DNA of 20,989 nt from a virus: the IMG/VR virus record IMGVR_UViG_3300017773_000190, positions 1 through 20,989 of that record; one strand, given 5' to 3'. Of the stretch, positions 1,685 to 16,322 are shown piece by piece (within the stretch, counting starts at the first letter, position 1; every line of letters starts with the position of its first letter). The notes below the pieces were generated by a model. The model was not told the DNA's origin. It was given only the letters and a program-made list of their open reading frames with translations, and did no database searches. The position numbers were made by a program, and so were the translations under genes.

Positions 1685-1926
1685 AAATAAGATATTATAA
1701 AGATTTGAATGCTGGACGTTGGTTAGGATTTTTAATCGCAATGACTGGTTGTTTTGTTTTAAGTAATGCAGATGTTGATACACAATGGATGGGTTGGGCG
1801 ATAGCATGTGTATCTTGTGGCATGTGGATTAGATTTGCAATAAAAGATAAAGACATACCTAGAGCATTAATGGAAGGTATGTATTTGCTCTTGTCATTAA
1901 GAGCAGTTTGGAATTGGTTAGCATGA
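1681..1926 (+). CDS. Small predicted membrane protein, unknown function
   Basis: This 81-aa protein has no family I recognise. Hydrophobic segments at about residues 14-28 (WLGFLIAMTGCFVLS), 36-54 (WMGWAIACVSCGMWIRFAI) and 62-80 (ALMEGMYLLLSLRAVWNWL) suggest two or three membrane passes, with a short basic N-terminus. It is linked by ATGA overlaps to both neighbours, the methyltransferase upstream and gp46 downstream, so it is translated within the recombination operon. Tight coupling and a clean open frame support a real gene. A gp46/gp47-related role is possible, but nothing in the sequence shows it. Confidence 0.75.
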   Translation: MKIRYYKDLNAGRWLGFLIAMTGCFVLSNADVDTQWMGWAIACVSCGMWIRFAIKDKDIPRALMEGMYLLLSLRAVWNWLA

Positions 1927-3629
1927 TACACTTTACAAAAGTACGTTGGAAAAACTTTTTATCTACTGGTAATAATTTTACAGAGGTACAATTAGATAGA
2001 CAAACAACAACACTAATCATAGGTGAAAATGGTTCAGGTAAATCAACAATACTTGATGCATTGTGTTTTAGTTTATTTGGAAAACCATTTAGAGTAATTA
2101 GTAAATCACAATTAGTTAATACTATTAATGATAGAGAAACAGTTGTTGAAGTAGAGTTTAATATTGGAACTAAAGAATGGAAAATAGTTAGAGGTATTAA
2201 ACCAAACAAGTTTGAAATTTGGTGTGATGGTATTATGGTAAATCAAGAGGCAAATGCTAGAGATTATCAAAAGTATTTAGAACAAACTGTACTAAGATTA
2301 AACTTTAGGTCTTTTACTCAAGTTGTAATATTAGGTTCATCAACCTTTATACCTTTCATGCAACTAAAGGCAGTTCATAGAAGAGAAGTAGTTGAAGAGA
2401 TACTTGATATAAAAATATTTTCATTGATGAATATGGTATTGAAAAATCAATTGAAAGACATACAAGACGATATCAAAGATATGGATTATCAGTTTGAGAT
2501 GGCAGTAGAAAAAATTGCTATGCAAACAAATTATATTGATGATATGAAAAAGAACAAAGATAAAATCATAAAAGAGAAACAAGACTTATTTCAATCTAAT
2601 CAAACTATACTAACAGATAGAGAGAAAGAAAAGGCCCTTTTAGAGACTGCTAGCGATGATCTGACAGGTGAAATCAATGATAAGACACATACAGAGAGCA
2701 AATTATCTAAACTTAATAATATACGTGCTACGTTAACAGAAAAACATAAACAACTAGCAAAAGATATGGAGTTTTTTAAGAACAATGATTCGTGTCCTAC
2801 ATGTGAACAAGACATACAACAATCACACAAAGAAAAAATGATTGCAGACAGAGAAATCAAAACAAGAGAAATACTTGATGGTGCAATAAAATTAAAAGAA
2901 GAATTATTAACTGTAAATAAACGTTTAGAGGAAATAACTGGTATAACAAAAACCATACGTGAGAATGAAGTAAGACAAGCAGAGATTTATAGTTCTGTTG
3001 CAGAGTTACAAAAATATAATAGAAAACTAAAAGAAGATATAGAAAATTTTGAAAGTGGTTCTGTATCTGAAAAAGATATAGATAAATTAAATCAGATGAA
3101 AACAGATTGCAAAAAAGTTGAGTATCAAAGAAGTAATTTAAAAGATCAAAAAACTTACATACTTGCAGCTAGAGATATGTTGAATGATACAGGTATTAAA
3201 ACTAAAATTATAAAACAATATTTACCTATCATGAATCAATTAATTAACAAATATCTTATGTCAATGGATTTTTACGTAAACTTTAATCTAGATGAAAACT
3301 TTAATGAAACAATTAAATCTAGATTTAGAGATACGTTTAATTATGCCTCTTTTAGTGAAGGTGAAAAAATGCGTATCGATTTAGCGCTACTCTTTACATG
3401 GAGAGCAATAGCAAAAATGAAAAATAGTGTTAACACAAACTTATTAATACTAGATGAAATATTTGATAGTAGTTTAGATGGTCAAGGTACAGATGAGTTT
3501 TTAAGAATATTAAATACTCTTGGCGATGAAAATACTTTTGTAATATCTCACAAAGGAGATCAGTTAGTAGATAAGTTTAGAAACAGTATTAAATTTGAAA
3601 AACAACAAAACTTTTCAAGGATAGCATAA
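1923..3629 (+). CDS. 46: Recombination endonuclease subunit gp46 (SbcC/Rad50-like ATPase)
   Basis: This is the ATPase subunit that partners gp47 in end resection and recombination-dependent replication. With the start at 1923 (ATGA overlap with the preceding stop) the protein has 568 aa, close to T4 gp46. In order: Walker A GENGSGKST at 34-42, a Q-loop region with QVVILGSSTFIPFM, a first coiled coil, the zinc hook CPTC at 291-294, a second coiled coil, the ABC signature FSEGEK at 477-482, Walker B LLILDEIFD with D511/E512, and the switch histidine in VISHK. An in-frame ATG at 1908 exists, but MIHFTKVRWKNFLS aligns with the expected family N-terminus. The short coiled coils are normal for phage Rad50 homologues. 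Confidence 0.96.
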   Translation: MIHFTKVRWKNFLSTGNNFTEVQLDRQTTTLIIGENGSGKSTILDALCFSLFGKPFRVISKSQLVNTINDRETVVEVEFNIGTKEWKIVRGIKPNKFEIWCDGIMVNQEANARDYQKYLEQTVLRLNFRSFTQVVILGSSTFIPFMQLKAVHRREVVEEILDIKIFSLMNMVLKNQLKDIQDDIKDMDYQFEMAVEKIAMQTNYIDDMKKNKDKIIKEKQDLFQSNQTILTDREKEKALLETASDDLTGEINDKTHTESKLSKLNNIRATLTEKHKQLAKDMEFFKNNDSCPTCEQDIQQSHKEKMIADREIKTREILDGAIKLKEELLTVNKRLEEITGITKTIRENEVRQAEIYSSVAELQKYNRKLKEDIENFESGSVSEKDIDKLNQMKTDCKKVEYQRSNLKDQKTYILAARDMLNDTGIKTKIIKQYLPIMNQLINKYLMSMDFYVNFNLDENFNETIKSRFRDTFNYASFSEGEKMRIDLALLFTWRAIAKMKNSVNTNLLILDEIFDSSLDGQGTDEFLRILNTLGDENTFVISHKGDQLVDKFRNSIKFEKQQNFSRIA

Positions 3630-3769
3630 TGAGAACAATAAAACAATGGAAGTTATATCTTAGACTATATTGGTCAACATTTTTATCTTATTTTAAAAAG
3701 AAAGAGAAAGATCAAGATGTTTTCATTTATGAAAATGATGATTTTGATAATGACTTTAAAGATGAATAA
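3629..3769 (+). CDS. Small ORF (46 aa), basic N-terminus and acidic tail
   Basis: This short gene is wedged exactly between gp46 and the radical SAM gene. Its ATG overlaps the gp46 stop (TAATG), and its own TAA overlaps the next ATG in the same way. The N-terminal half is basic and aromatic (KQWKLYLRLYWSTFLSYFKKK) and could be an amphipathic or membrane-lying helix. The C-terminal part is strongly acidic with phenylalanines (DDFDNDFKDE). The perfect stop/start coupling on both sides is the main evidence that it is translated. I do not recognise a family. The acidic/Phe tail loosely recalls clamp-binding tails of T4-type proteins, but this is only a resemblance. Confidence 0.6.
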   Translation: MRTIKQWKLYLRLYWSTFLSYFKKKEKDQDVFIYENDDFDNDFKDE

Positions 3770-4515
3770 TGCCAAACTTTTTACAACACCCTCAAGAGAT
3801 GATAGACTTAGGTCAAAGTTTATCAAAAAGAATTGACATTGCGATAACTAATCGTTGTAATGCTAGGTGTCCTCAATGTGATAGAACTAATCCAAATGGT
3901 TTAGGTGCTGTTGATTGGTTACCAATTATATCTTGGCCAGTAGAAAAATTTATAAAATATTTTCCAAAAGAAACTTTAGATGATATAGAAGAGTATGGGT
4001 TTACTAGCACTTGGGGAGACTCAATGATGGCAAAAGACATAGAAAAAATATGTCACTATATTATTGATAATTCAAAAGCAAATGTACTAATAACAACAAA
4101 TGGTAGTTTACGTAATGAAGAGTTTTATTGGAACTTAGGTGTTTATTGTGGGGAGAGACTTACTATTATATTTGATATAGATGGCACCACAGAGGAAATG
4201 CATCAAAAGTATAGAAGAGGCACATCATTAAAAAAATCTTTAGATCATATGTATATGTTTTCACAAACTCAAGGAAAAGCATTATCTCAAACAATATTAT
4301 TTAAACACAATCAAGAATATAAAAAAGATATATTAGATTTAGTAAAAAAATATGGTTCAGCAAATCATGAGTTTTATCCTAGTGATAGATTTGAAAATTC
4401 TATCCCTAATTCAAATCCTACTCATATATTTAATCATAATAAATCTAATAGATTTTATTTTATTAATGAAAAGGGTGAAGAGGAATATCTAGAGGCTGCA
4501 GATGATAAAGTGTAA
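3769..4515 (+). CDS. Radical SAM protein, N-terminal core (split gene, part 1)
   Basis: This is a predicted radical S-adenosylmethionine enzyme core. The 4Fe-4S-binding CxxxCxxC motif is C30-C34-C37 in TNRCNARCPQCDRT, directly after a first beta strand (IDIAIT). A later STWGDSMM segment sits where the GGE-type SAM-contacting motif is expected, and LITTNGSL and LTIIFDIDG fit further barrel strands. The 248-aa protein stops where a SPASM/twitch-type C-terminal domain would begin. That domain is present in the next frame (4502-4780), so a single enzyme of about 335 aa appears to be encoded as two overlapping ORFs. The substrate is unknown. Its neighbours are carbamoyltransferase and sugar-type enzymes, suggesting a role in making or modifying a small moiety. 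Confidence 0.85.
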   Translation: MPNFLQHPQEMIDLGQSLSKRIDIAITNRCNARCPQCDRTNPNGLGAVDWLPIISWPVEKFIKYFPKETLDDIEEYGFTSTWGDSMMAKDIEKICHYIIDNSKANVLITTNGSLRNEEFYWNLGVYCGERLTIIFDIDGTTEEMHQKYRRGTSLKKSLDHMYMFSQTQGKALSQTILFKHNQEYKKDILDLVKKYGSANHEFYPSDRFENSIPNSNPTHIFNHNKSNRFYFINEKGEEEYLEAADDKV

Positions 4516-4780
4516 ATTTTTGGAAGGCACAACTAAAACTATGATAAACCCAGATGGTCAAGTTTGGCCTTGTTGTTATCTTGCTAGTGATCAATATGGT
4601 AAACCAAATAAAGCAAAACATCAACTATTGACAAAGTATCATGATAACAAAGATAGATATAATTTAGAAAATGATAGTATAAAAAATATTACACACAAAG
4701 ATTGGTTTCAAAAAGATTTACCAAAAAGTTTTGAAGACCCAATAGATATATGTCAGTTTAATTGTAAGGTAAACAAATGA
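4502..4780 (+). CDS. SPASM/twitch-like Cys-rich domain (split radical SAM, part 2)
   Basis: This 92-aa protein carries the cysteine pattern of the C-terminal auxiliary cluster domain of SPASM/twitch radical SAM enzymes: CKF near the start, DGQVWPCCYL at about 18-27 and CQFNC near the end. It is in a different frame from the radical SAM core and overlaps its last 14 bp. The overlap is not random: an AGAGG ribosome-binding site at 4491-4495 sits 6 nt before its ATG, so it can be translated independently. Alternatives are a +1 frameshift near GAT-GAT-AAA-GTG giving a fused protein, or a sequencing or assembly indel. It ends in an ATGA overlap with the carbamoyltransferase gene. Confidence 0.75.
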   Translation: MIKCKFLEGTTKTMINPDGQVWPCCYLASDQYGKPNKAKHQLLTKYHDNKDRYNLENDSIKNITHKDWFQKDLPKSFEDPIDICQFNCKVNK

Positions 4781-6108
4781 TTAATGTAGGAATATCAGCA
4801 GGATTTCATGATGCAGCTATTACAGTAATTAATGGAAGAGAAATAATTTATGCTAATCATTGTGAAAGATACTCAAAGATAAAAGGAGACCCTAACTTTA
4901 ATCCTAACCTTTTACCTTTACATTATGATAATACTGCGTTTTATGAAAAACCATTTTTAAAAAATACAAGAAGATTGTTTGCAGGTCAAAGAATGAAATG
5001 GCCTGATAGAAAATATGACTATTACTTTGGTCATCATGAAACCCATGCAGCTGCAGGTTATTATACTTCACCATTTAACGAATGTAATGTTTTGGTCATA
5101 GACGCAATAGGTGAATGGAATACAATATCAATATGGGAAGGTAAAGATGATAAGTTAATAAAATTAAAAACATGGAACTATCCATATTCACTAGGATTAT
5201 TGTATTCAGCGATTACAAGAAGAATAGGATTAAAACCAAACGAAGATGAATATATCACAATGGGTATGGCTGCATTTGGAGAACCAAAGTATGATTTAGA
5301 ATATCTATTACATAAAAATAATCATAGAGGTGTTGGTAAAATATTTCCACGAGCACACCCTAATGATTTAGCAGCTAGTGTACAAAATTTATATGAAACA
5401 AAGTTTTTAGAACTATTAAAATATTGTGACTATAATAACATAGTAATCATGGGTGGTTGTGCTTTAAATTGTGTTGCAAATAGTAAGATACCAGATCGTT
5501 TTAATGTTTGGATTATGCCATCACCTGGTGATGCAGGTTCAAGTCTAGGTGCAGCTGCTTTGATAGAAAAGAAAAAAATAAGATGGCGACACCCATACTT
5601 AGGTCACAATATAATAAAAGAATTAAACCCTAAAGAAATCGTAAAACATTTACTAGAACATAAACTTTGTGGAGTTGCAAACGGAAGAGCAGAGTTTGGA
5701 CCAAGAGCATTAGGTAATAGAAGTTTATTAGCAGACCCTAGACTAGATATTAAAGATACAGTAAATGAAGTTAAACAAAGACAAAAGTTTAGACCTTTCG
5801 CACCAGCAATATTGGAAGAATACTTTGATGATTACTTTGTTGGTAGAAAGAATAGGTATATGCAGTTTGTATCTAAAGCAAGACACGATTATAAATCAGT
5901 CACACACGTTGACGGTACCGCTAGAGTTCAATGTGTTGAGAAAGATAATATAAGTATATTAAGACCTATACTAGAAGAGTGGTATAGTCAAACAGGTTGT
6001 CCTATGTTATTAAATACATCCTTAAACATAAGAGGTAAACCTATAGTTAATAATGTTACTCATGCAGAAAGTTTTGAAAAGAAATATAATGTCAAAGTAT
6101 TCCGATAA
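4777..6108 (+). CDS. Carbamoyltransferase, NodU/CmcH/TobZ family
   Basis: This enzyme is predicted to transfer a carbamoyl group from carbamoyl phosphate, via a carbamoyl-adenylate, to a hydroxyl of a sugar or other acceptor. The N-terminal Kae1-like domain shows GISAGFHDAAITV with H11/D12, the metal-binding HHETHA at about 86-91, and DAIGE at 109-113. The YrdC-like C-terminal part shows MGGCALNCVANS and the hallmark FGPRALGNRS at 307-316, followed by LLADPR and FRPFAPAIL. The end PMLLNTSLN...GKPIV matches the family C-terminus, then a short tail. At 443 aa it is compact relative to family members of about 550-600 aa, but all landmarks are there. Its last 20 bp overlap the next gene. Its position among sugar-type enzymes suggests carbamoylation of a glycan or modified base; the acceptor is unknown. 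Confidence 0.9.
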   Translation: MINVGISAGFHDAAITVINGREIIYANHCERYSKIKGDPNFNPNLLPLHYDNTAFYEKPFLKNTRRLFAGQRMKWPDRKYDYYFGHHETHAAAGYYTSPFNECNVLVIDAIGEWNTISIWEGKDDKLIKLKTWNYPYSLGLLYSAITRRIGLKPNEDEYITMGMAAFGEPKYDLEYLLHKNNHRGVGKIFPRAHPNDLAASVQNLYETKFLELLKYCDYNNIVIMGGCALNCVANSKIPDRFNVWIMPSPGDAGSSLGAAALIEKKKIRWRHPYLGHNIIKELNPKEIVKHLLEHKLCGVANGRAEFGPRALGNRSLLADPRLDIKDTVNEVKQRQKFRPFAPAILEEYFDDYFVGRKNRYMQFVSKARHDYKSVTHVDGTARVQCVEKDNISILRPILEEWYSQTGCPMLLNTSLNIRGKPIVNNVTHAESFEKKYNVKVFR

Positions 6109-6904
6109 AATAATAGTTGGTGGTTGTAGTTTTACAGATAAGAACTATCCTAGTAGAGCAAAACCAAAACCTTTACATTTTAAAATGTGGCCAGAAGTTA
6201 TAGGTGAACTATATGATTGTGAAGTTATTAATACTGCTAGATGTGGATTTGGTAATATGGCAATCTATCATGAAACTTTAGATGCAATAATAAAAAATAA
6301 AGATAATATAAAACATGTATATGTAATGTGGTCAGAATGGGCAAGACAAGATTTTTTACTTAATGATTATTCATATCACATAACTCAAGCAGATGGTAGT
6401 AGAACAAAGATAACAAAAAGATTTGACACTATGATACCTAGAGCTGAGAATGATGAATATGATAAAACACAATTGTGGTATAGAAAGTCTTTTAATTTTT
6501 CTGGCACTATTAAACATGCATACCCAAACTTAGATAATCTTATAGATACTAATTTAAATTACATATATTCAATGCAATCCATATGTGAAAATCTAAACAT
6601 ACCATATACGTTTGCACAAGCAATCAAACCAATACCAGCATTTCATTTTACAAATGACAATCATAAAAGAGATAATGCAATCGCAATAAAATTAATAGAA
6701 CATAAGACCAGTGATTTAATTAAAGAGAATAATTTTTGGGGATGGCCGATAGTACCAGAGATTGGTGGATTTAATGTTTTAAGTTTCTTAAAAAGAGCAA
6801 TGGGTGAAACAGGTTATAAAGTATCATTCAAAGATACACACCCTAACGAAAAAGCACACAGGTTGATAGCAAAAGAACTTTATGATTATAGCATTCAAAA
6901 ATAA
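6089..6904 (+). CDS. SGNH/GDSL-hydrolase-like protein, copy A
   Basis: This 271-aa protein resembles a phage SGNH-hydrolase fold. Block I is seen as IIVGGCSFTDK (nucleophile Ser in the GCS context). The block II glycine is in TARCGFGNMA, a block III-like turn lies around YVMWSEWARQD, and the catalytic Asp-His pair is in KDTHPNEKAH near the C-terminus. The start at 6089 gives MSKYSDKIIVGG. An upstream in-frame ATG at 6053 would extend it uselessly into the carbamoyltransferase gene. It is clearly paralogous to the protein at 7973-8683. SGNH enzymes act as esterases, lipases or acetyl(xylan)esterases or transferases, so a role in deacylating or acylating a glycan is plausible. Strict catalysis is not proven, because the block III Asn is not obvious. 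Confidence 0.7.
   Translation: MSKYSDKIIVGGCSFTDKNYPSRAKPKPLHFKMWPEVIGELYDCEVINTARCGFGNMAIYHETLDAIIKNKDNIKHVYVMWSEWARQDFLLNDYSYHITQADGSRTKITKRFDTMIPRAENDEYDKTQLWYRKSFNFSGTIKHAYPNLDNLIDTNLNYIYSMQSICENLNIPYTFAQAIKPIPAFHFTNDNHKRDNAIAIKLIEHKTSDLIKENNFWGWPIVPEIGGFNVLSFLKRAMGETGYKVSFKDTHPNEKAHRLIAKELYDYSIQK
6551..6588 (+). repeat. Conserved DNA block shared by the SGNH paralogues
   Basis: This block and 8330-8367 agree at most positions, with the first 18 bases identical (AATTTAAATTACATATAT). They encode LNYIYSMQSIC and LNYIYAMQSIC. Conservation at DNA level, including silent sites, indicates a fairly recent duplication or gene conversion between the two genes. Confidence 0.6.
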
Positions 6905-7976
6905 ATCTTTACGTAATTTTTACTCAAAAAAAGAAAACAGACTTTTTAGTGATGTAAGCGATCATTGGATTCCTTTACATAAAGAATTAGGTTATCCTGT
7001 AACAACTTTAGATAAAGTTAAAGGAAAATATATTTACTATGATAATGTAAGAAAGTATAGTCATGATATTATACAAAACAATGAATTTAAGTTATTACCA
7101 GATAAAGTAAAAGATGATATTAATAATGATAAATGTTTTTATATAATTAATGATTCTGAAATTGATTTGTCAGGTGGTAATTGGATTGATACATATCCTC
7201 TTTTATTAAATGAAGCTGGGATAAAACCTAATAAATGTAAAATACTTATCTCAAAGTACAATATTTTATGTGAACCATACAAAAGTAATGTTATTAAAAC
7301 TTACCATTGGGATATATTTGAAAAGTATGTACAAAATCATAATCAACCAGAAATAGTAAAAGTATTAGATGATAATCCTAAAAAATTTTTATGTCTTAAT
7401 AGATCACATTCAAATACTATTGCAAAATCTAAAAGTATGTTTATGTATAAGGTGATGCCAATGATAGAGGATTTTAATGCTAGTATTAATAATGGAGTTT
7501 ATGATTTAGTCTATGATGTAAAATTTAAACAAAGAATTGATAATGGGTTTGCATCTAAAGACAATGACTTATCATATTGGTCAAGAGAAAACTGTATTAA
7601 TATTGTAACAGAGAGTGTTTGTCATAGTATTGATAATACTAATAACGGTATTAATATAACTGAAAAAACTTATAAAGCAATAATGTTAAAAATGCCATTT
7701 ATTTTAGTAGGAACACAATACTCATTAAAAGTTTTAAAACAGCAAGGATATAAAACATTTAATAATTTATGGGATGAGTCATATGATAATATTTACAATT
7801 TTGACGATAGAATAAATGCTGTTGTAGAATTAGTAAAAGAACTAAGAACAAAAAATTTAAAAAAGTTGGTGTTAGATAATTTAGATATATTAGAATATAA
7901 TTACAATAATTTTATTAACAGAAAATCAAAATTAAAAGATTTAAAAAAAGACATAGAGAAATGGTTTAATTCATGA
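6882..7976 (+). CDS. Glycosyltransferase-like protein
   Basis: This 364-aa protein lies between the two SGNH paralogues, overlapping the first by 23 bp and the second by ATGA. The N-terminal half is not recognisable. The C-terminal half contains ITEKTYKAIMLKMPFILVG (about 262-280), then GYKTFNNLWDESYD. This TEKT-x-PF pattern recurs in phage proteins distantly related to fucosyltransferase-type GT-B glycosyltransferases, where it marks the donor-binding region. I base the call on this motif and on the neighbourhood (carbamoyltransferase, SGNH proteins), not on full-length similarity. The upstream VTESVCHS segment fits a preceding strand of the same domain. It could instead be a LPS-biosynthesis-type protein of unknown reaction. 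Confidence 0.5.
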   Translation: MIIAFKNKSLRNFYSKKENRLFSDVSDHWIPLHKELGYPVTTLDKVKGKYIYYDNVRKYSHDIIQNNEFKLLPDKVKDDINNDKCFYIINDSEIDLSGGNWIDTYPLLLNEAGIKPNKCKILISKYNILCEPYKSNVIKTYHWDIFEKYVQNHNQPEIVKVLDDNPKKFLCLNRSHSNTIAKSKSMFMYKVMPMIEDFNASINNGVYDLVYDVKFKQRIDNGFASKDNDLSYWSRENCINIVTESVCHSIDNTNNGINITEKTYKAIMLKMPFILVGTQYSLKVLKQQGYKTFNNLWDESYDNIYNFDDRINAVVELVKELRTKNLKKLVLDNLDILEYNYNNFINRKSKLKDLKKDIEKWFNS

Positions 7977-8683
7977 TTATAGTAGGTGGATGTAGTTATA
8001 CAGATAAAAGTTATTATGATTTCAAAGTATGGCCAACAATACTTGGTGAGATAAAAAAATGTGAAGTCATTAATACAGCGAAAGCAGGTTATGGTAATCG
8101 AGCAATATTTCATAATACTTTACAAGCAATACAAAACAATCTTAATAAAGTAGAACATGTTTATATAATGTGGACTGCATTTGATAGACAAGACTTTCTT
8201 ACACAACCCGATTGGAAAACAATAAGTGTTACAACTAACGATTACGATTACACCTATGAAAAAGCAAATAAACTTTACAATGAATTTTTAAGTCAAGACT
8301 TTCCTAATTTAAAACAAATAATTAATAATAATTTAAATTACATATATGCTATGCAATCTATATGTAGAGATAACTTTATTAACTACACATTTTGTCAAGC
8401 AATGCCTTTGCTTACAGGTAATCATATAAAACACTTTTCGAATGATTTTAAAACACAATCAAAAGTTGTGCTATCAAAAGAAATTATTAATCATATGTTA
8501 ACGGATAAGATTAAAGATTTTTATGGGTGGCCATGTATATCTGAAATAGGAGGGTTTAATATTCAAGATATATTGAATAAAGAGTATGGTAAAAAAGGAT
8601 GGTGGATATCGGAAGATGATGGTCACCCAAGTGAAAAAGCACATACTCATATAGCATCCAATTTACTTGCATTTACGATATAA
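7973..8683 (+). CDS. SGNH/GDSL-hydrolase-like protein, copy B
   Basis: This 236-aa paralogue of the protein at 6089-6904 has the same landmarks in the same order: IIVGGCSYTDK, TAKAGYGNRA, YIMWTAFDRQDF, LNYIYAMQSIC, FYGWPCISEIGGFN and DDGHPSEKAH. It lacks about 35 residues that copy A has in the middle (around the IPRAENDEYDKTQLW region) and near the start. The presumed catalytic residues (Ser in GCS, Asp-His in DGHP) are kept in both copies, so neither looks decayed. It starts in an ATGA overlap with the glycosyltransferase-like gene and ends the accessory cassette. A GC-rich intergenic segment follows. Confidence 0.7.
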   Translation: MIIVGGCSYTDKSYYDFKVWPTILGEIKKCEVINTAKAGYGNRAIFHNTLQAIQNNLNKVEHVYIMWTAFDRQDFLTQPDWKTISVTTNDYDYTYEKANKLYNEFLSQDFPNLKQIINNNLNYIYAMQSICRDNFINYTFCQAMPLLTGNHIKHFSNDFKTQSKVVLSKEIINHMLTDKIKDFYGWPCISEIGGFNIQDILNKEYGKKGWWISEDDGHPSEKAHTHIASNLLAFTI

Positions 8684-8836: not shown

Positions 8837-8859
8837 ATAAGAGTATGAGAGAGGTTAAT

Positions 8860-11079
8860 ATGCAAAACAAAAAATCAACTATTGCAAAATTACTTGCCGA
8901 AGAGGATATTTCAATAGTTCACAAAAAAACTAGAACTGCTTCTTTTGATGTTAAAAAGAGAGAGTTAGTTTTACCAATATTCAAAGATCAAATATCTAAC
9001 GATGTGTATGACATGTTTGTATGTCATGAAGTTGGCCATTCACTTTGGACTCCTTTAGATATGTTAAAAAAAATTCATAAAGAAGGTATCGATCATTCTG
9101 TAGTTAACGTTATCGAAGACGCTAGAATAGAAGCGATGATACAAAAAAGATATCCTGGTTCTCAAAAAAACTTTACTCAAGGTTACAAAGAATTATTAGA
9201 TAGAGATTTCTTTGGTGTTAAAAACAAAGATTTATCTAAACTTAATGTTATCGACAAAATTAATATTTACTTCAAGACTGGTCTTGATGTAGGATTTAAC
9301 ACTAAAGAAAAATTACTTGCTGACAAAGTTGCAAAATGTAAAACACCAGATGATGTAATTAAACTTGCAATTGAGATTTCTGGTTATCACAAAAAGAAAT
9401 CAAAGGAAGATAAAAAAGATGAATTAACTATTATTGTTCCTAATAATGCTCCTAAACAAGAGGACGAAGACTCTGATAATAATGAGTCTTCATCTTCTGA
9501 TTCTCATACGGATGCTGAGAACAATCAAGATACTGATAATAATGATTCAGGTTCAGATGATAAATCTAAAGATAAAAATGATAACGAAGAAAAAGACTCT
9601 GATACGCAAAGTCAAGTTGGTGGTGACGGTGCAGGTCTAGGAATTAAAAGTGACTTAGTTGCTCATACAGATGCAGCTTATCAATCAGCAATGGATGATC
9701 ATAACGATCACGAAGCAAGAGATAGAAGTTATGTTAACATACCAAAAGTTAATCTTAAAAATTTAATTATATCATACAAAACTGTATTGTCAGATTTAAA
9801 AGAACATTATAAAAATGACAGTTCAGGTGCTAACGATTTTATTCATAGTGAATATACTAAGATACTTAATGATAATAAAAAAGTAGTTTCATACATGGTC
9901 AAAGAATTTGAAATGAAAAAACAAGCAGATTTATATAAAAGAGCAACTATTGCAAAAACTGGTGTTCTTAATATGAGTAAGTTACATACTTACAAATACA
10001 ATGATGACTTGTTTGCAAAAATGACTACTATACCTGGTGCAACTAATCATGGTATGATTATGTATGTTGACTGGTCTGGTTCAATGAGTGACAACATGGA
10101 TTTTACACTAAAACAATTATACAATCTTATTTGGTTTTGTAATAGAACAAAGATACCTTTTCAAGTTCTTGCTTTTTCTGATAGAGAACATAGATGTAAT
10201 GTATATGAAGGTGAATCAGTTAATCAGAGTCAACAACAAAAAGTTGGTGATATGGATTTAGAGAATGTTAAACTAATAGAATTGTTTAGTTCTAATATGA
10301 CTAAAGCAGAACAAGAAGAGCAAATTAAAAACTGTATTAGAATGTCTTGTCAATGGAATTACAGACATGATAATCGTATGGATTTATCTTATGTCTCTTA
10401 TGTTCATGACAAATATAATTTAGGTGGTACACCACTTAATCATGCTATCGCTTGTGCAGCTCAAGTTATTGAAAACTTTCAAATGCAAACTAGAGTTCAA
10501 AAAACAAACTTAATATTTTTAACTGATGGTGATAGTCATGCTGCTAGATATTATTTTGATTACAAAAAAGATTGGAATGATAACGAAGTATTTGGTCAAG
10601 TTGATGTTCCTTATGATAATCACATTGTTTATTCAGATAAAACAAGAGGTATCAAATTACTTCAAAATCATGAAAGTTATTACAGAAATCAACAAACTAC
10701 AGCTTTATTGAGTATGCTTAAAAAACAAGTTCCTGGTCTTAATATTACAGGTTTCTTTATTGAGGGTAGAGGTAGACATGGTAGAGTTAACGTTGATACT
10801 ATTTGCAGAAAAATGGGTTGGTCTAGAGGTTCAGATGAACAAAAGATTTTAGATGCACAAAAACAATTAAGAAAAGAAAAAGTATTAGTATGTAAGTCTC
10901 AAGGTTATGATGAGTATTATATCTTACCAAGAGGTCCTATAGATCAAGGTGAAGATGAAATACTAGATATAGTGCCAAATGCAAAATCGAATCAAATACT
11001 AAAAGCATTCAAAAAAGCAAGTGGTTCTAAGACTTTAAATAGACAATTACTTAACAAATTCATAGATATGGTGGCGTAA
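8860..11079 (+). CDS. VWA-domain protein with N-terminal HExxH motif (CobT-like)
   Basis: This 739-aa protein pairs with the AAA+ gene downstream, like the VWA partner of MoxR/CobS-type ATPases. Visible parts: an N-terminal zincin-like CHEVGHSL with HEVGH at 56-60 and EDARIE at about 86-91; a long acidic, Ser/Asp/Asn-rich linker at about 195-260; and a C-terminal VWA domain with the MIDAS motif DWSGS at 404-408, a LGGTPLNHA threonine loop and FLTDGDSH. The start at 8860 is preferred over the ATG at 8845, because AGAGAGGTTA lies just before it, as before the CobS-like gene. CobT-type annotation rests on architecture, and cobalt chelation itself is doubtful without a CobN. A metal-dependent protease or a chaperone-like AAA+/VWA function are alternatives. 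Confidence 0.8.
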   Translation: MQNKKSTIAKLLAEEDISIVHKKTRTASFDVKKRELVLPIFKDQISNDVYDMFVCHEVGHSLWTPLDMLKKIHKEGIDHSVVNVIEDARIEAMIQKRYPGSQKNFTQGYKELLDRDFFGVKNKDLSKLNVIDKINIYFKTGLDVGFNTKEKLLADKVAKCKTPDDVIKLAIEISGYHKKKSKEDKKDELTIIVPNNAPKQEDEDSDNNESSSSDSHTDAENNQDTDNNDSGSDDKSKDKNDNEEKDSDTQSQVGGDGAGLGIKSDLVAHTDAAYQSAMDDHNDHEARDRSYVNIPKVNLKNLIISYKTVLSDLKEHYKNDSSGANDFIHSEYTKILNDNKKVVSYMVKEFEMKKQADLYKRATIAKTGVLNMSKLHTYKYNDDLFAKMTTIPGATNHGMIMYVDWSGSMSDNMDFTLKQLYNLIWFCNRTKIPFQVLAFSDREHRCNVYEGESVNQSQQQKVGDMDLENVKLIELFSSNMTKAEQEEQIKNCIRMSCQWNYRHDNRMDLSYVSYVHDKYNLGGTPLNHAIACAAQVIENFQMQTRVQKTNLIFLTDGDSHAARYYFDYKKDWNDNEVFGQVDVPYDNHIVYSDKTRGIKLLQNHESYYRNQQTTALLSMLKKQVPGLNITGFFIEGRGRHGRVNVDTICRKMGWSRGSDEQKILDAQKQLRKEKVLVCKSQGYDEYYILPRGPIDQGEDEILDIVPNAKSNQILKAFKKASGSKTLNRQLLNKFIDMVA

Positions 11080-11118
11080 ATGATTGATATTACTAGCTTT
11101 ATTGATATGGTTATATGG

Positions 11119-11148
11119 TTGACAATAAACACTATATTATGATAGAAT
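11119..11148 (+). promoter_or_regulatory. Sigma-70-type promoter for the CobS-like gene
   Basis: A perfect TTGACA (11119-11124) is followed after 18 bp by TAGAAT (11143-11148), a five-of-six match to the -10 consensus. It lies in the 112-bp gap between the VWA gene and the AAA+ gene, about 45 bp before the ATG. The -35 box is preceded by two tandem ATATGGTT copies (11105-11120). The gene therefore has its own promoter as well as possible read-through. Confidence 0.65.
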
Positions 11149-11191
11149 TAATGTATAAGGTGATAAAAACAACAACAAGAGAGGTTATATT

Positions 11192-12391
11192 ATGTTAACA
11201 CCCAATAAACAAGCGTTTGTTGATAAAGCGTCAAAACACTTCGGTGTTGGTGCTATCGTTTCTAGGAACGAGATCAATGAGTTCGCTAAATCAATAGGAT
11301 TTTCTAATCCTAGTTGGTTTAAGAAACCTGCTTACAAAGTAGGTCACGGTAAATATCAATTACCGACAAGTGACACAGCTGAACAAGATGATGTTGAAAT
11401 TAAACAAATCAGTTCAACTGTTTCTAATAATACTGATAATGCAATGTCAGTTAACTTAATCGCTACAAATTCTGGTTCTGAAAGTTTAGTACCTTCAATG
11501 TTTAAAGGATTTGTACCTTGGGGTCATTACTCTACAATCAATCAGATTGTTAAGTCTGGCATGTTTTACCCAGTTTTTGTTACTGGTCTATCTGGTAATG
11601 GTAAAACTCTTATGGTAGAACAAGTTCATGCTGCTAACAAAAAAGATTTAATCAGAGTCAATATTACAATTGAAACTGATGAAGATGATTTGTTAGGTGG
11701 TTTCAGACTTGTAAATGGTGAAACTAAATTTGTTCCTGGCCCAGTGGTCGAAGCAATGGAAAAGGGTTGTACTTTGTTGCTTGACGAGTGTGACTTAGGT
11801 TCAAACAAGTTAATGTGTTTACAACCAGTTCTTGAGGGTAAAGGTGTTTATCTTAAAAAAGTAAACAAATGGATTACGCCAAAAGCTGGATTTAATATTC
11901 TTGCAACAGCAAATACCAAAGGTAAAGGTTCTGAGGATGGTAGATTTATCGGTACGAATGTTTTGAACGAAGCATTTTTAGAAAGATTTGCTATCACAAT
12001 TGAACAACCTTATGCTGCTAAAAAGACCGAAGAGAAGATTATACTTGGGTCTATGGATAAGTATGGTAAGTCTGATAAGAAGTTCGCTGCCAACTTATGT
12101 ACTTGGGCAGAGGTTATCAGAAAAACTTTTTACGATGGTGGTGTAGATGAGATTATATCTACTAGAAGACTTGACCACATTGTTAAAGCATTTTCTATCT
12201 TTGGTGATAAAATGAAAGCAATCGAGTTATGTGTTGCTAGATTTGATGATGACACTAAAGAGTCATTCTTAAATCTTTATACTAAGATTGATGCTGGAGT
12301 TACAGTTGATTCTTTAAACTCTGATTCTCAAACTCAAGTTGAGGAAGATGAGAAAGAGCCAGAGGATGAGGACGCTGTCGCTACTATCTAA
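11192..12391 (+). CDS. cobS: AAA+ ATPase, MoxR/CobS-like
   Basis: This 399-aa protein is the CobS-type ATPase common in T4-like marine phages. Walker A is GLSGNGKT at 132-139, Walker B is TLLLDEC at 194-200 (D198/E199), sensor 1 is ATAN at 238-241 and the arginine-finger region is AFLERF at 261-266. The insert between Walker A and B (VNITIETDEDDLLGG) is typical of the MoxR/CobS clade. The N-terminal ~60 residues form a small helical domain before a low-complexity Ser/Asn stretch. The C-terminus is acidic (EEDEKEPEDEDA). It follows the VWA protein, its likely substrate-recognition partner. An AGAGAGG ribosome-binding site precedes the start. In bacteria CobS acts with CobN/CobT in cobalt insertion into corrinoids; whether the phage protein does so is unproven. 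Confidence 0.88.
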   Translation: MLTPNKQAFVDKASKHFGVGAIVSRNEINEFAKSIGFSNPSWFKKPAYKVGHGKYQLPTSDTAEQDDVEIKQISSTVSNNTDNAMSVNLIATNSGSESLVPSMFKGFVPWGHYSTINQIVKSGMFYPVFVTGLSGNGKTLMVEQVHAANKKDLIRVNITIETDEDDLLGGFRLVNGETKFVPGPVVEAMEKGCTLLLDECDLGSNKLMCLQPVLEGKGVYLKKVNKWITPKAGFNILATANTKGKGSEDGRFIGTNVLNEAFLERFAITIEQPYAAKKTEEKIILGSMDKYGKSDKKFAANLCTWAEVIRKTFYDGGVDEIISTRRLDHIVKAFSIFGDKMKAIELCVARFDDDTKESFLNLYTKIDAGVTVDSLNSDSQTQVEEDEKEPEDEDAVATI

Positions 12392-12503: not shown

Positions 12504-12932
12504 ATGACCAATCTAAGCATATTCAATCAATTAAGACCATTCTCAATAGGATTTGACGACATGTTCGATCATTTCGATTCAATGGTAAGTATGGCACCAA
12601 ATAACTATCCACCATACAATATAGTAAAAACTGATAAGAATAGTTACAATGTAGAAATCGCACTAGCTGGTTTCAACAAAAAAGATATATCAGTTGAAGT
12701 AGAGAATGGTATATTAACCATCGAGTCTATCAAAACAAAAGACGAAAAAGAAGTTGAAGATAATGATGGTGCATTGTATAAAGGTATATCTAAAAGATAC
12801 TTTAAAAAACAATTTACAATTGCAAAAGATGTAAAAGTAAATGGGGCTGAATTAAAAGACGGTCTTTTAAAAGTGTCTATGGAAAAAATTATACCAGAGG
12901 CAATGAAATTAAAACAAATTACTGTTAAGTAA
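12504..12932 (+). CDS. hsp20: Small heat-shock protein, Hsp20/IbpA type
   Basis: This is a 142-aa alpha-crystallin-domain chaperone expected to hold unfolded proteins in the host cytoplasm, perhaps during virion assembly. The N-terminal IGFDDMFDHFD, then YPPYNIVKTDKNSYNVEIALAGFNKKDISVEVENG, and the late YKGISKRYFKKQFTIA and LKDGLLKVSMEKIIPEA segments follow IbpA order and spacing (A-G-F and the L-x-D/N-G-L-L motif are clear). The short IxI/V-like tail KQITVK is kept. A strong ribosome-binding site, GGAGG at 12491-12495, precedes the ATG by 8 nt, suggesting high expression. It is a stand-alone transcription unit with promoter elements upstream and a terminator hairpin downstream. Hsp20 genes are common in T4-like marine phages. 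Confidence 0.95.
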   Translation: MTNLSIFNQLRPFSIGFDDMFDHFDSMVSMAPNNYPPYNIVKTDKNSYNVEIALAGFNKKDISVEVENGILTIESIKTKDEKEVEDNDGALYKGISKRYFKKQFTIAKDVKVNGAELKDGLLKVSMEKIIPEAMKLKQITVK

Positions 12933-13767: not shown

Positions 13768-14071
13768 TAGTATTTACAGGTATAGTGAAGATAAAATTTT
13801 AAAAGAATTAAAAGAATATATCGACAGTACCTATAAACAGCATTATTCTAAAAATAAATTTCAAGCAACAGAGTTTATTATGGATAGTGGACACGGTGAG
13901 GGATTTTGTATTGGCAACATTATGAAATACGCTCAGCGTTTTGGCAAAAAAGATGGCAAGAATAGAAAAGACTTGCTTAAAGTAATACATTATGGTATAA
14001 TGGCATTACATAATTTAGATAATGGAGAAGTGAATAATGAAATTGAGCAACGAGACCATTGGGGTTCTTAA
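13760..14071 (+). CDS. DUF3310-like protein
   Basis: This 103-aa protein contains FCIGNIMKYAQRFGKKDGKNRKDLLKVIHYGIMALHNLD (about 53-91), cited here in parts: FCIGNIMKYAQRFGKK and KNRKDLLKVIHYGIMAL. This matches the helical core of the small phage family DUF3310, which often accompanies nucleotide-metabolism and replication genes. The ATG at 13760 is preferred to a GTG at 13751. The start overlaps the previous gene by 8 bp, and the end overlaps gp45 by 35 bp. Coupling to gp45 suggests early or middle expression with the replisome. The function of the family is not established. Confidence 0.75.
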   Translation: MSDSIYRYSEDKILKELKEYIDSTYKQHYSKNKFQATEFIMDSGHGEGFCIGNIMKYAQRFGKKDGKNRKDLLKVIHYGIMALHNLDNGEVNNEIEQRDHWGS

Positions 14072-14711
14072 AAACTTTGGTAGTATAAATCAAAATTTAG
14101 TTATCAAAGAAGGCAATACCCTTACTACAATGTCAGCGATGAAAAACATTGTGGCAAAAGCAGATGTTGTTGAGACATTTCCTAAAGAAGTAGCGATATA
14201 TGATTTGAATGAATTCTTATCATCACTATCACTATTTACTCAACCAGTTCTTGATTTTCAAGATCAATACATGACAATGAAAGATGAGGGTTCAAAAGCA
14301 ACTCTTAAATATTGGTATTCTGACCCTAGTGTTGTAACAAGTCCTAGTAAGATGATTACAATGCCAAGTGAGGATGTTAAACTTACTTTGTCAAGTGAAG
14401 ATATAGAAAAACTAAAAAGAGCAGCTAGTGTCGTTCAAGCACCCGATATGGTTCTTGAAAAAACTGACAATGGATGTGCTTTAACTGTATGTGATAAAAA
14501 AAATAATACTGCTAATAATTATGCAATAGATGTAGATTGTTCTTCTAACGCAAAATCATTTAAGTTCTTTTTTAAAGTAGAGAATATGAAATTATTACCT
14601 GGTACATATGACATTACAATATCGTCAAAAAATATCAGTAATTTTAAAAACTCTGCTAAGAATATTGAATATTGGATTGCATTAGAACCTGAATCAACAT
14701 ATGAGGCGTAA
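14037..14711 (+). CDS. 45: DNA polymerase sliding clamp gp45
   Basis: This is the trimeric processivity clamp for gp43 and the mobile platform for late transcription. The 224-aa length equals that expected for T4 gp45 (228 aa), and the start MKLSNETIGVLKNFGSIN closely resembles the T4 N-terminus. Further matches are AIYDLNEFLSSLSLF (about 54-68), the YWYSDPSVVTSPSK segment, and the ending NMKLLPGTYDITIS...YWIALEPEST. It lies directly before gp44 in T4 order. The ribosome-binding site GGAG at about 14024 is inside the preceding gene, with a 35-bp overlap, so translational coupling is likely. Confidence 0.96.
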   Translation: MKLSNETIGVLKNFGSINQNLVIKEGNTLTTMSAMKNIVAKADVVETFPKEVAIYDLNEFLSSLSLFTQPVLDFQDQYMTMKDEGSKATLKYWYSDPSVVTSPSKMITMPSEDVKLTLSSEDIEKLKRAASVVQAPDMVLEKTDNGCALTVCDKKNNTANNYAIDVDCSSNAKSFKFFFKVENMKLLPGTYDITISSKNISNFKNSAKNIEYWIALEPESTYEA

Positions 14712-14713
14712 TT

Positions 14714-15649
14714 ATGGAAACATTTCTATGGGTCGAGAAGTATCGACCAAAGACAGTAGATGAATGTATATTATCTACTGAACTAAAGAAAACTTTTACA
14801 GAGTTTGTAAAAGATCAACATATACCTAATCTTATATTATCTGGGTCTGCTGGAACTGGCAAAACTACTATTGCAAAAGCAATGGTAGAAGAGATTGGTT
14901 CTACGTGGATGTTAATTAATGGTTCAGAGGAATCTGGTATTGATGTACTAAGAACTAAAATTAAAAACTTTGCATCAACTGTATCGCTAGAAGGTGGTAG
15001 AAAGTATATTATACTAGACGAGGCAGATTATCTTAATCCTCAATCAACTCAGCCTGCCTTACGTGGATTTATGGAAGAGTTTCATAAGAACTGTGGTTTT
15101 ATATTAACATGTAATTATAAGAATAGATTAATTGAACCTTTACAATCTAGATGTTCTAATATTGATTTTACAATAAGAAACGGTGAAAGAATAAAACTTG
15201 CTAAATTATTCTTTGAAAGAGTACAAGATATTCTTAACAAAGAACAAATTAAGTTTGAACCTAAAGCTATTGCTGAATTAATTAATAAGTATTTTCCCGA
15301 TTGGCGAAGATGTTTAAATGAATTACAAAGATATTCTTCTTCTGGTCAAATAGATGCAGGTATACTTGTAAATCTTTCAAGCGAAAACATAAAAGAGCTT
15401 ACAGGTTTTTTAAAAGCAAAAGAGTTTACCAATGTTCGTAAATGGATTGTTAATAATTTAGATAATGACCCATCAAGAATTTTTAGAACAATTTATAATT
15501 CTTTATATGACAATTTAGACCATAGCACAATACCACATGCAGTTGTTATTATTGCAGATTATCAATACAAATCTGCATTTGTAGCAGATCAAGAAATAAA
15601 CATGTTGGCTTGTATGACTGAATTAATGTCTCAAGTAAAGTTTAAATAA
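14714..15649 (+). CDS. 44: Clamp loader large subunit gp44
   Basis: This AAA+ ATPase of the gp44/gp62 complex loads the gp45 clamp at primer-template junctions. Residues are in family order: an N-terminal WVEKYRPKTVDE, Walker A GSAGTGKT at 44-51, Walker B LDEAD at 101-105, sensor 1 in LTCNYKN (N134), and the SRC motif at 145-147 that gives the trans arginine finger. Sensor 2 is around PDWRRCLNELQRY. The 311-aa length is typical. It starts 2 nt after the gp45 stop. Unusually, two sugar-type genes separate it from its partner gp62 (T4 has 44-62 adjacent). Confidence 0.96.
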   Translation: METFLWVEKYRPKTVDECILSTELKKTFTEFVKDQHIPNLILSGSAGTGKTTIAKAMVEEIGSTWMLINGSEESGIDVLRTKIKNFASTVSLEGGRKYIILDEADYLNPQSTQPALRGFMEEFHKNCGFILTCNYKNRLIEPLQSRCSNIDFTIRNGERIKLAKLFFERVQDILNKEQIKFEPKAIAELINKYFPDWRRCLNELQRYSSSGQIDAGILVNLSSENIKELTGFLKAKEFTNVRKWIVNNLDNDPSRIFRTIYNSLYDNLDHSTIPHAVVIIADYQYKSAFVADQEINMLACMTELMSQVKFK

Positions 15650-15665
15650 GATAAATAATGAGTCT

Positions 15666-16322
15666 ATGATGCAAAAAAACGAGTGGCATGTCGTCACAGA
15701 GTTTGAAAACAAAGTCGCAGAATTCTTTGGTGCTCCATATGCGGTTGCCACAGATTGTTGCACAAATGCTTTAGAGCTTTGCTTAAGATTAGAAAAACAA
15801 AAGCAAGGTAAAGAAGTTCGTGCTATCAAAGTTCCATTTCACACATACGTTTCAGTTCCAAACATGCTAATTAAAAATGGTTGGAAGTTTCAATGGGGTG
15901 ATGTGCATTGGCATGAGTATTATTATCTAACAAAAGAAACTATTGATGCAGCTGTGTATTGGAAAAAGAATGGTTACGAACCTGGCACCAGAATGTGTTT
16001 AAGTTTTTTTTATAGAAAACATTTAAGTACAGACAGAGGTGGCATGATACTTTTAGATAATAAAGAAGATGCTGATTTATTAAGGTTAATGTGTTACGAT
16101 GGTAGAACAAGATCAAGTGTGCCATGGAATGAACAACATATAGATGTGTTTGGTTATCATTATTATATGACACCACACAAAGCAAAAATAGGATTAAAAA
16201 ATTTTGAGAAAGTGAAAGACGTAAAACCTATGAAAAAAGATTGGGATTACTACCCAGATATTCATAAGTTGCCTGTCTATAAAAAGTTTGGTTATGAAGA
16301 GTTTGATATTAGTACAAAGTAA
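15666..16322 (+). CDS. Compact DegT/DnrJ/EryC1/StrS-type sugar aminotransferase
   Basis: This is a predicted PLP-dependent aminotransferase of the family that puts amino groups on nucleotide sugars. At 218 aa it is much shorter than the usual ~370-400 aa. The key residues survive: DCCTNALEL (30-38) for the phosphate, VPFHTYVSVPNMLIKNGW, the cofactor-ring Asp94 in IDAA, and the Schiff-base Lys118 in SFFYRKHLSTDRGG. The middle of the large domain and most of the C-terminal small domain are missing. Reading frame and catalytic set are intact, so it looks like a minimised enzyme and not a decaying gene. It sits 16 nt after gp44 and overlaps the glycosyltransferase gene by 29 bp. Product and partner substrate are unknown. 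Confidence 0.8.
   Translation: MMQKNEWHVVTEFENKVAEFFGAPYAVATDCCTNALELCLRLEKQKQGKEVRAIKVPFHTYVSVPNMLIKNGWKFQWGDVHWHEYYYLTKETIDAAVYWKKNGYEPGTRMCLSFFYRKHLSTDRGGMILLDNKEDADLLRLMCYDGRTRSSVPWNEQHIDVFGYHYYMTPHKAKIGLKNFEKVKDVKPMKKDWDYYPDIHKLPVYKKFGYEEFDISTK

Follow-up and report, generated by a model that had tools for sequence, protein, structure and literature searches.

The AAA+ ATPase gene cobS is a core cyanophage gene according to excerpts of PMC3037559, and passages of two further papers count it among the cobalamin genes that phages carry for host metabolism (PMC2984593, PMC9599517). Its neighbour has been read in different ways. It is catalogued as phrog_459, 'peptidase' (T4-GC 146 in the records of Synechococcus phage S-PM2 and Prochlorococcus phage P-SSM2), whereas the available text of Liu et al. 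(2021) states that cyanophage cobT was "mistakenly annotated as a peptidase" (PMC8651126). Passages of Iyer et al. (2021) describe a MoxR-vWA pair from group 2.2 jumbo phages in which the vWA protein bears a metallopeptidase domain at its N-terminus, and propose a role in virion assembly (PMC7824862). In open-licence PMC text, we found no paper reconciling the peptidase and CobT views and none containing both 'CobT' and 'HEXXH'. Here, we analysed such a pair in a 20,989-base virus record from a T4-like, marine phage (IMG/VR IMGVR_UViG_3300017773_000190; the window, that is, the whole stretch of DNA). With a probability of about 0.5, we favour the view that the pair is a mobile-element MoxR-type machine in which ATP drives a metalloprotease, or a remodeller, that acts on replication-recombination proteins.

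The first gene of the pair (positions 8845-11079, plus strand; the start at 8860 used in the first-pass annotation of this DNA is the next in-frame ATG after 8845) encodes a VWA protein of 744 amino acids that matches phrog_459 over its full length (1.2e-198, residues 5-744 on profile positions 2-736 of 736). As that annotation had claimed, the protein carries HEVGH, a putative HExxH zinc-binding/catalytic motif (residues 61-65; 9025-9039), and EDARIE (residues 91-96; 9115-9132), followed by an acidic linker predicted to be disordered (residues 193-269, 29% Asp plus Glu; 9421-9651) and a VWA domain (approximately residues 400-640; 10042-10764), in which the metal ion-dependent adhesion site (MIDAS) residues DWSGS (409-413), T529 and D561 do not vary among 15 aligned sequences. 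From its composition, 0.036 HExxH motifs would be expected in the protein by chance. After 112 bases follows the open reading frame (ORF) of its partner, a CobS-like MoxR-clade AAA+ ATPase of 399 amino acids (11192-12391, plus strand; phrog_249, 2.6e-112; AAA_5, 2.1e-16) with the Walker A motif GLSGNGKT (11585-11608) and the Walker B motif LLLDE. The phrog_459 members of S-PM2 and P-SSM2 show the same motif and the same position between gp46 and cobS/gp45, and the window protein differs from them only in sequence and in the extra genes between gp46 and the pair. Relatives are held by 463 GenBank phage records, mostly of cyanophages and all below 60% identity to the window protein, and most of the 60 matches listed are named 'peptidase'. 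The suggestion that the partner of phage cobS had been overlooked therefore did not stand, since both this name and the architecture described in the passages of PMC7824862 precede it. The zincin-VWA/AAA+ architecture is already known; the evolutionary reading is sharper here.

HExxH was found in all 105 N-termini compared (the window and 104 viral or metagenome-assembled genome (MAG) loci) and, once redundancy had been reduced at 85%, was still invariant in 90/90 sequences, which share 14-72% identity with the window protein. The first-pass annotation had made its reading depend on this conservation. HExxH was absent from all search patterns used to collect the loci; since EDARIE was one of the patterns, there is some circularity in its conservation at those loci. 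The positions without exception in the 90 sequences were P44, H61, E62, H65, N88, E91, D92, R94 and G105, and the position of E96 was occupied by Glu or Asp. HExxH was also present in 13 of 16 named records found by tblastn (S-PM2, P-SSM2, Mosig, vB_OspM_OC, DLP6, SSU5, an E. coli plasmid, RHph_Y2_11, V1VFA-S, T5S1, ICP2, Shelley and an IncC plasmid), with HEIGH but no clear second motif in Gordonia phage Shelley; the three records without it are Pseudomonas phage hairong, Stenotrophomonas phage BUCTxx99 and one Acinetobacter plasmid. A hidden Markov model (HMM) of the window family, built with four distant bacterial rows included, recovered the domain in 14/16 records (IncC 3.3e-17, SSU5 7e-12) and missed Shelley and ICP2. 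In the E. coli plasmid (NZ_CP029421, L133), the CobT-like HExxH gene stops early and a transposase-like ORF comes next, as if it had been interrupted by an insertion sequence.

Residues 1-195 are confidently modelled as a small zincin-like fold (domain at residues ~11-192; 8875-9420), structure prediction being a check that the first-pass annotation had proposed. That annotation had also named an N-terminal fold lacking a metal site as a reason to drop its reading; the predicted fold is zincin-like, with a putative metal site. The AlphaFold2 model, based on 90 sequences, has a mean predicted local distance difference test score (pLDDT) of 88.5 and a predicted template modelling score of 0.83, and places three strands before the HExxH helix (52-68) and the ED.R helix (84-102). 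Its Foldseek neighbours in the PDB include abylysin, ArdC, selecase, jannalysin and PprI (probability up to 0.98). VIA-align gave abylysin (Z 8.1, 93 residues, root mean square deviation 3.4), ZMPSTE24 (8.0), BlaR1 (7.6) and IrrE (7.6) as the top rows, and by their titles rows 1-19 (Z 6.1-8.1) were without exception metallopeptidases or proteins of zincin fold, among them the IrrE/PprI, BepA and ArdC rows, which we take to have that fold. The minigluzincins (abylysin, jannalysin, selecase), ArdC, IrrE/PprI and Wss1 share the predicted fold of the N-terminal domain at 6-18% identity in the fold listings, and we know of no VWA or AAA+ partner for any of them. CobT entries did not turn up in the Foldseek and VIA fold searches, an absence that carries no information, and a phage-family profile run against PDB sequences recovered neither a zincin nor CobT. 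The full-length model (pLDDT 66.8) shows a disordered linker (pLDDT <50) before the VWA domain, for which the best Foldseek PDB match was the NorQ-bound VWA domain of NorD (E 2.2e-4); the MIDAS domain of midasin came next.

A neighbourhood survey of HExxH-VWA genes, as the first-pass annotation had proposed, showed linkage to the ATPase. Among 125 loci, 112 had enough flanking sequence and 13 too little; a CobS-like gene lay downstream on the same strand in 105/112, with a median gap of 181 bases, and in the remaining seven it was upstream on the other strand (four loci) or missing (three). In ICE-like (integrative and conjugative element-like, a label given from gene content alone), MAG or IncC loci, an AAA+ gene was present within ~10 kb of 9/11 HExxH-VWA genes, and for L130 and L131 no AAA+ partner was found within the stretch covered. 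An AAA_5/MoxR-type ATPase here adjoins a VWA protein with an intact MIDAS, as in MoxR-VWA chaperone pairs. The AAA+ query also retrieved ATPases of Listeria phage P100 and Staphylococcus phage G1, but the neighbouring genes that were read include no VWA gene carrying these motifs. Both the pair and the IncC VWA protein were unmatched in PADLOC, and a catalogued defence system is therefore not supported.

CobST of the aerobic cobaltochelatase (PF06213/PF11775, TIGR01650; PDB 9uka, 21vu) is likewise an AAA+ plus VWA pair. The window ATPase matches TIGR01650 PD_CobS at 9.4e-21, far under the cut-off of that model, and solved CobS by sequence (PDB 9ujv, 6.6e-20). In contrast, the VWA protein reached only 0.12 against PF06213 and had no match to CobT_C (PF11775) up to E 10, whereas distant relatives of it do match PF11775. 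Other HExxH proteins match PF06213 clearly (Salmonella phage SSU5 2.1e-37, an ICE-like locus 6.2e-13, the IncC plasmid VWA protein 5.2e-6), and profile comparisons connected phage with ICE-like HExxH proteins (99%, 5e-18), SSU5-like with phage proteins (98.6%, 8e-16) and ICE-like HExxH proteins with CobT (96.6%, 5e-10). Because hhalign gave only 17% when the phage N-terminal domain was aligned directly to bona fide CobT, homology is claimed only via intermediates, through which the window protein appears to be a distant, remote homologue of CobT. The contrast that the first-pass annotation drew with CobT, in calling the pair unlikely to be a simple cobalt chelatase, accordingly concerns function and not ancestry.

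As that annotation had also held, CobT lacks HExxH: the motif was found in none of 33 bona fide CobT N-termini (the 30 loci L150-L179 minus L175, L162 and L170, plus L135 and L195-L199). L175 was missed by the ORF filter, and L162 and L170 dropped out during trimming; HExxH is missing from the motif regions of these two as well. A solved CobT chain has no HExxH in the aligned stretch either. The peptidase and CobT views can thereby be reconciled, the window protein being a probable remote CobT relative in which the motif is intact. At the HExxH columns of the alignment, CobT shows S/M/R, S/I/K, Q/A/F and the like, and at D92 it has Gln, Glu, Asn, Thr or Lys; E91 is kept in all, and the E96 position is Glu or Asp. 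D92 has been lost together with HExxH in two of the three dead mobile-element proteins and in 14/14 CobT or CobT-like rows, with E91 and E96 retained there.

A tree was built from 43 rows after removal of the four site columns, with Shelley left out of both alignment and tree; it has long branches for ICP2, ICE_L189, OspM_OC and T5S1, and its midpoint root serves drawing only. The 14 CobT and CobT-like rows formed one group with 100/100 support among HExxH-bearing phage, plasmid and ICE-like rows. The distribution of HExxH on this tree needs at least three changes, and forcing all 17 HExxH-less rows together was rejected (p-AU 0.0013), so the site has changed more than once. The state of CobT would be a loss only on the assumption that the root lies outside CobT, a root that this tree does not supply. 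Judged from sequence, CobT looks like a dead member of a zincin-VWA family, which is the new point of this work. We suggest tentatively, at somewhat less than even odds, that CobT descends from an ATP-driven metalloprotease co-chaperone of phages, phage-plasmids, IncC plasmids and ICE-like elements that serves DNA replication or recombination, and that its protease site died when the pair was taken over for making vitamin B12 and, independently, in some lineages of phages. The phage 'cobS' would then not be a B12 gene, and if so, many claims of phage-boosted cobalamin would need revisiting. The CobT N-terminal domain would also gain a clear and testable origin if it is a dead zincin. In one genome (G396; L188 and L199), a bona fide CobST pair occurs together with a separate HExxH-VWA gene and a second CobS-like ATPase.

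The genomic surroundings of the pair consist mostly of genes for replication and recombination. In the window, the T4-type recombination nuclease subunits gp47 (109-1170; phrog_100, 6.4e-101) and gp46 (1908-3629; phrog_77, 2e-170) lie upstream, and the sliding clamp gp45 (14037-14711; phrog_223, 1.3e-77) and clamp loader gp44 (14714-15649; phrog_168, 8.9e-121) downstream, all on the plus strand. A homologue of gp44, 45, 46 or 47 was found within ~4 kb in 34/35 loci of at least 10 kb, and 11/13 named phage records (all but Shelley and ICP2) have a gene annotated for replication or recombination no more than 3-4 kb away. Such a gene was also nearby in all three plasmids read for it (pol III alpha twice, ssb-bet-exo on IncC). 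Among plasmids, 955 records have a relative, with Klebsiella, Escherichia and Acinetobacter the leading genera; CobT served as the query for this count, in which a small number of genuine CobTs are included. The SSU5-like phage-plasmid, IncC and ICE-like proteins share HExxH, ED.x.[ED], the VWA domain and a CobS/CbbQ-type AAA+ partner with the window protein, are usually named CobT, porphyrin biosynthesis or VWA protein, and have DUF3150 and recombination genes adjoining. Genes on the conjugative IncC plasmid run in the order AAA+, hypothetical, ssb, bet, exonuclease, DUF3150 and VWA (HEAAH), and ICE-like loci also contain genes for YqaJ recombinase, SSB or a zinc-ribbon/Toprim primase. DUF3150 (PF11348), which may be a third component, was seen close to the HExxH-VWA gene in the plasmid or ICE-like loci L187, L188, L189, L192, L193, L202 and L204. 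With the Ochrobactrum phage protein as query, tblastn against plasmids found nothing, and a viral-contig scan returned seven stretches with no relative among them. For the expression class in cyanophage P-HM2, the main text does not mention these genes.

The architecture is well supported by the domain order, the conserved HExxH and ED.R.[ED], the zincin-like and NorD-type VWA models, the AAA+ linkage and the homology to CobT via intermediates, with probable loss of the site there; zinc binding, proteolysis, ring assembly and the substrate class of the pair are what we infer. In the favoured model, the CobS-like AAA+ protein would form a ring onto which the partner docks via its C-terminal VWA/MIDAS domain, carrying a putative gluzincin-type zinc domain on a flexible acidic linker. 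ATP hydrolysis would pull or twist the VWA-bound substrate, which the tethered zincin could then cut or trim. The analogy is NorQD, which shares the VWA fold and MoxR partner with this pair and, according to passages of PMC13036017, drives metal insertion; by this analogy, the AAA+ ring would grip the VWA protein and ATP hydrolysis would strain the linker to the N-terminal domain. Unlike the window protein, NorD is not described with a zincin domain in those passages, and with a predicted zincin as its N-terminal domain, the machine considered here would deliver the protein that it has captured to a protease site. Its substrates are probably proteins that take part in, or obstruct, phage or plasmid DNA replication and recombination, and SSU5-like phage-plasmids and IncC plasmids are tractable systems in which to look for them.

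Several observations weigh against this model. The Foldseek E values to zincins were weak (at least 0.14, none below 0.001 in the PDB), and the highest VIA Z of 8.1 lies in a range that the tool itself calls common, so that the zincin assignment depends on the consistent neighbour list together with the invariant motif. The spacing from HExxH to EDARIE is gluzincin-like, but the third ligand is a candidate only (E91, D92 or E96, all on helix 84-102 of the predicted model); Vibrio phage ICP2 (L140), which keeps HExxH and yet has Val at the E91 position, bears on this choice. The three related mobile-element proteins without HExxH still keep the VWA domain and AAA+ partner, so part of the function is independent of the site, and in these lineages, as in CobST, remodelling by itself may be enough. 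Finally, the replication neighbours may merely reflect an early/middle gene module.

The same evidence bears on three other explanations. If the pair acted in virion assembly, as a MoxR-vWA chaperone also trimming structural proteins, the hsp20 gene at 12504, just downstream of the AAA+ ORF, would fit, as would the published proposal for the jumbo-phage pair, which shares architecture and partner with the window (likened here by description only), and a MoxR-vWA system needed for archaeal virus tail assembly, cited in the passages of PMC7824862. However, homologous pairs are carried by elements not expected to form virions, namely the conjugative IncC plasmid and ICE-like loci that also contain DUF3150, YqaJ, SSB or primase genes, and the neighbours in T4-like phages are gp44-47, not structural genes. 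The replication neighbours and the presence on a virion-less element point to replication/recombination proteins as clients and disfavour virion assembly as a general role, which we consider unlikely. A metal-cofactor insertase that loads metal or remodels an apoenzyme as NorQD does, its HExxH domain binding metal without cutting peptides, would agree with the closeness of the VWA domain to NorQ-bound NorD and with the yfaE gene for ribonucleotide-reductase maintenance that lies 2.8 kb downstream in the IncC locus. This seems distinctly unlikely, since E62, the catalytic-base position, is invariant with both histidines and would not be required for metal binding alone, and no metalloenzyme neighbour recurs across the lineages whose loci were read.

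The remaining explanation takes the pair as CobST, a cobalamin booster that hijacks host CobN for cobalt insertion into the corrin ring, with the 'peptidase' label mistaken. It is the published view in the available text of PMC8651126, and it would account for the CobS matches of the ATPase, for the homology of the N-terminal domain to CobT via intermediates and for the two CobN/ChlH-type matches that the same search gave in a Prochlorococcus genome. We regard it as highly improbable. The VWA protein is barely matched by the CobT models, and it has the HExxH and D92 that CobT lacks. No CobN was found in the window, as the first-pass annotation had stated, the window being a 21-kb virus fragment, and none (PF02514) in 18 phage records longer than the window, although the host may supply a CobN. 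Relatives occur on plasmids of Klebsiella, E. coli, Salmonella and Acinetobacter, which to our knowledge are not hosts known for CobN. Even CobST itself is found without CobN: in 398 Pseudomonadota genomes, 39 of the 127 with a strong CobT match had no CobN match, while all 39 had a CobS match (38 over the cut-off). In the Caulobacter vibrioides control, CobT and CobS were seen and CobN was not, and draft incompleteness could explain some of the 39, but CobST may also act outside the chelatase. The cobalamin reading of cobS would be wrong for these phages if its partner proves to be a metalloprotease instead of a subunit of the chelatase.

Other genes of the window include an MT-A70 methyltransferase gene (1145-1684) between gp47 and gp46. 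The coding sequence of a radical SAM protein is spread over two ORFs that overlap (3769-4515 and 4502-4780), which points to a frameshift or an error in sequencing, and a NodU/Nol-like carbamoyltransferase gene (4777-6108; phrog_1601, PF16861/PF02543) is inserted between gp46 and the VWA gene. The ORFs at 6053-6904 and 7973-8683 are paralogue-like, each with IIVGGCS(F/Y)TDK near its start and no Pfam match. A DegT/DnrJ aminotransferase ORF (15666-16322) has 218 amino acids against a 360-position model and overlaps the next ORF, and is possibly truncated or frameshifted.

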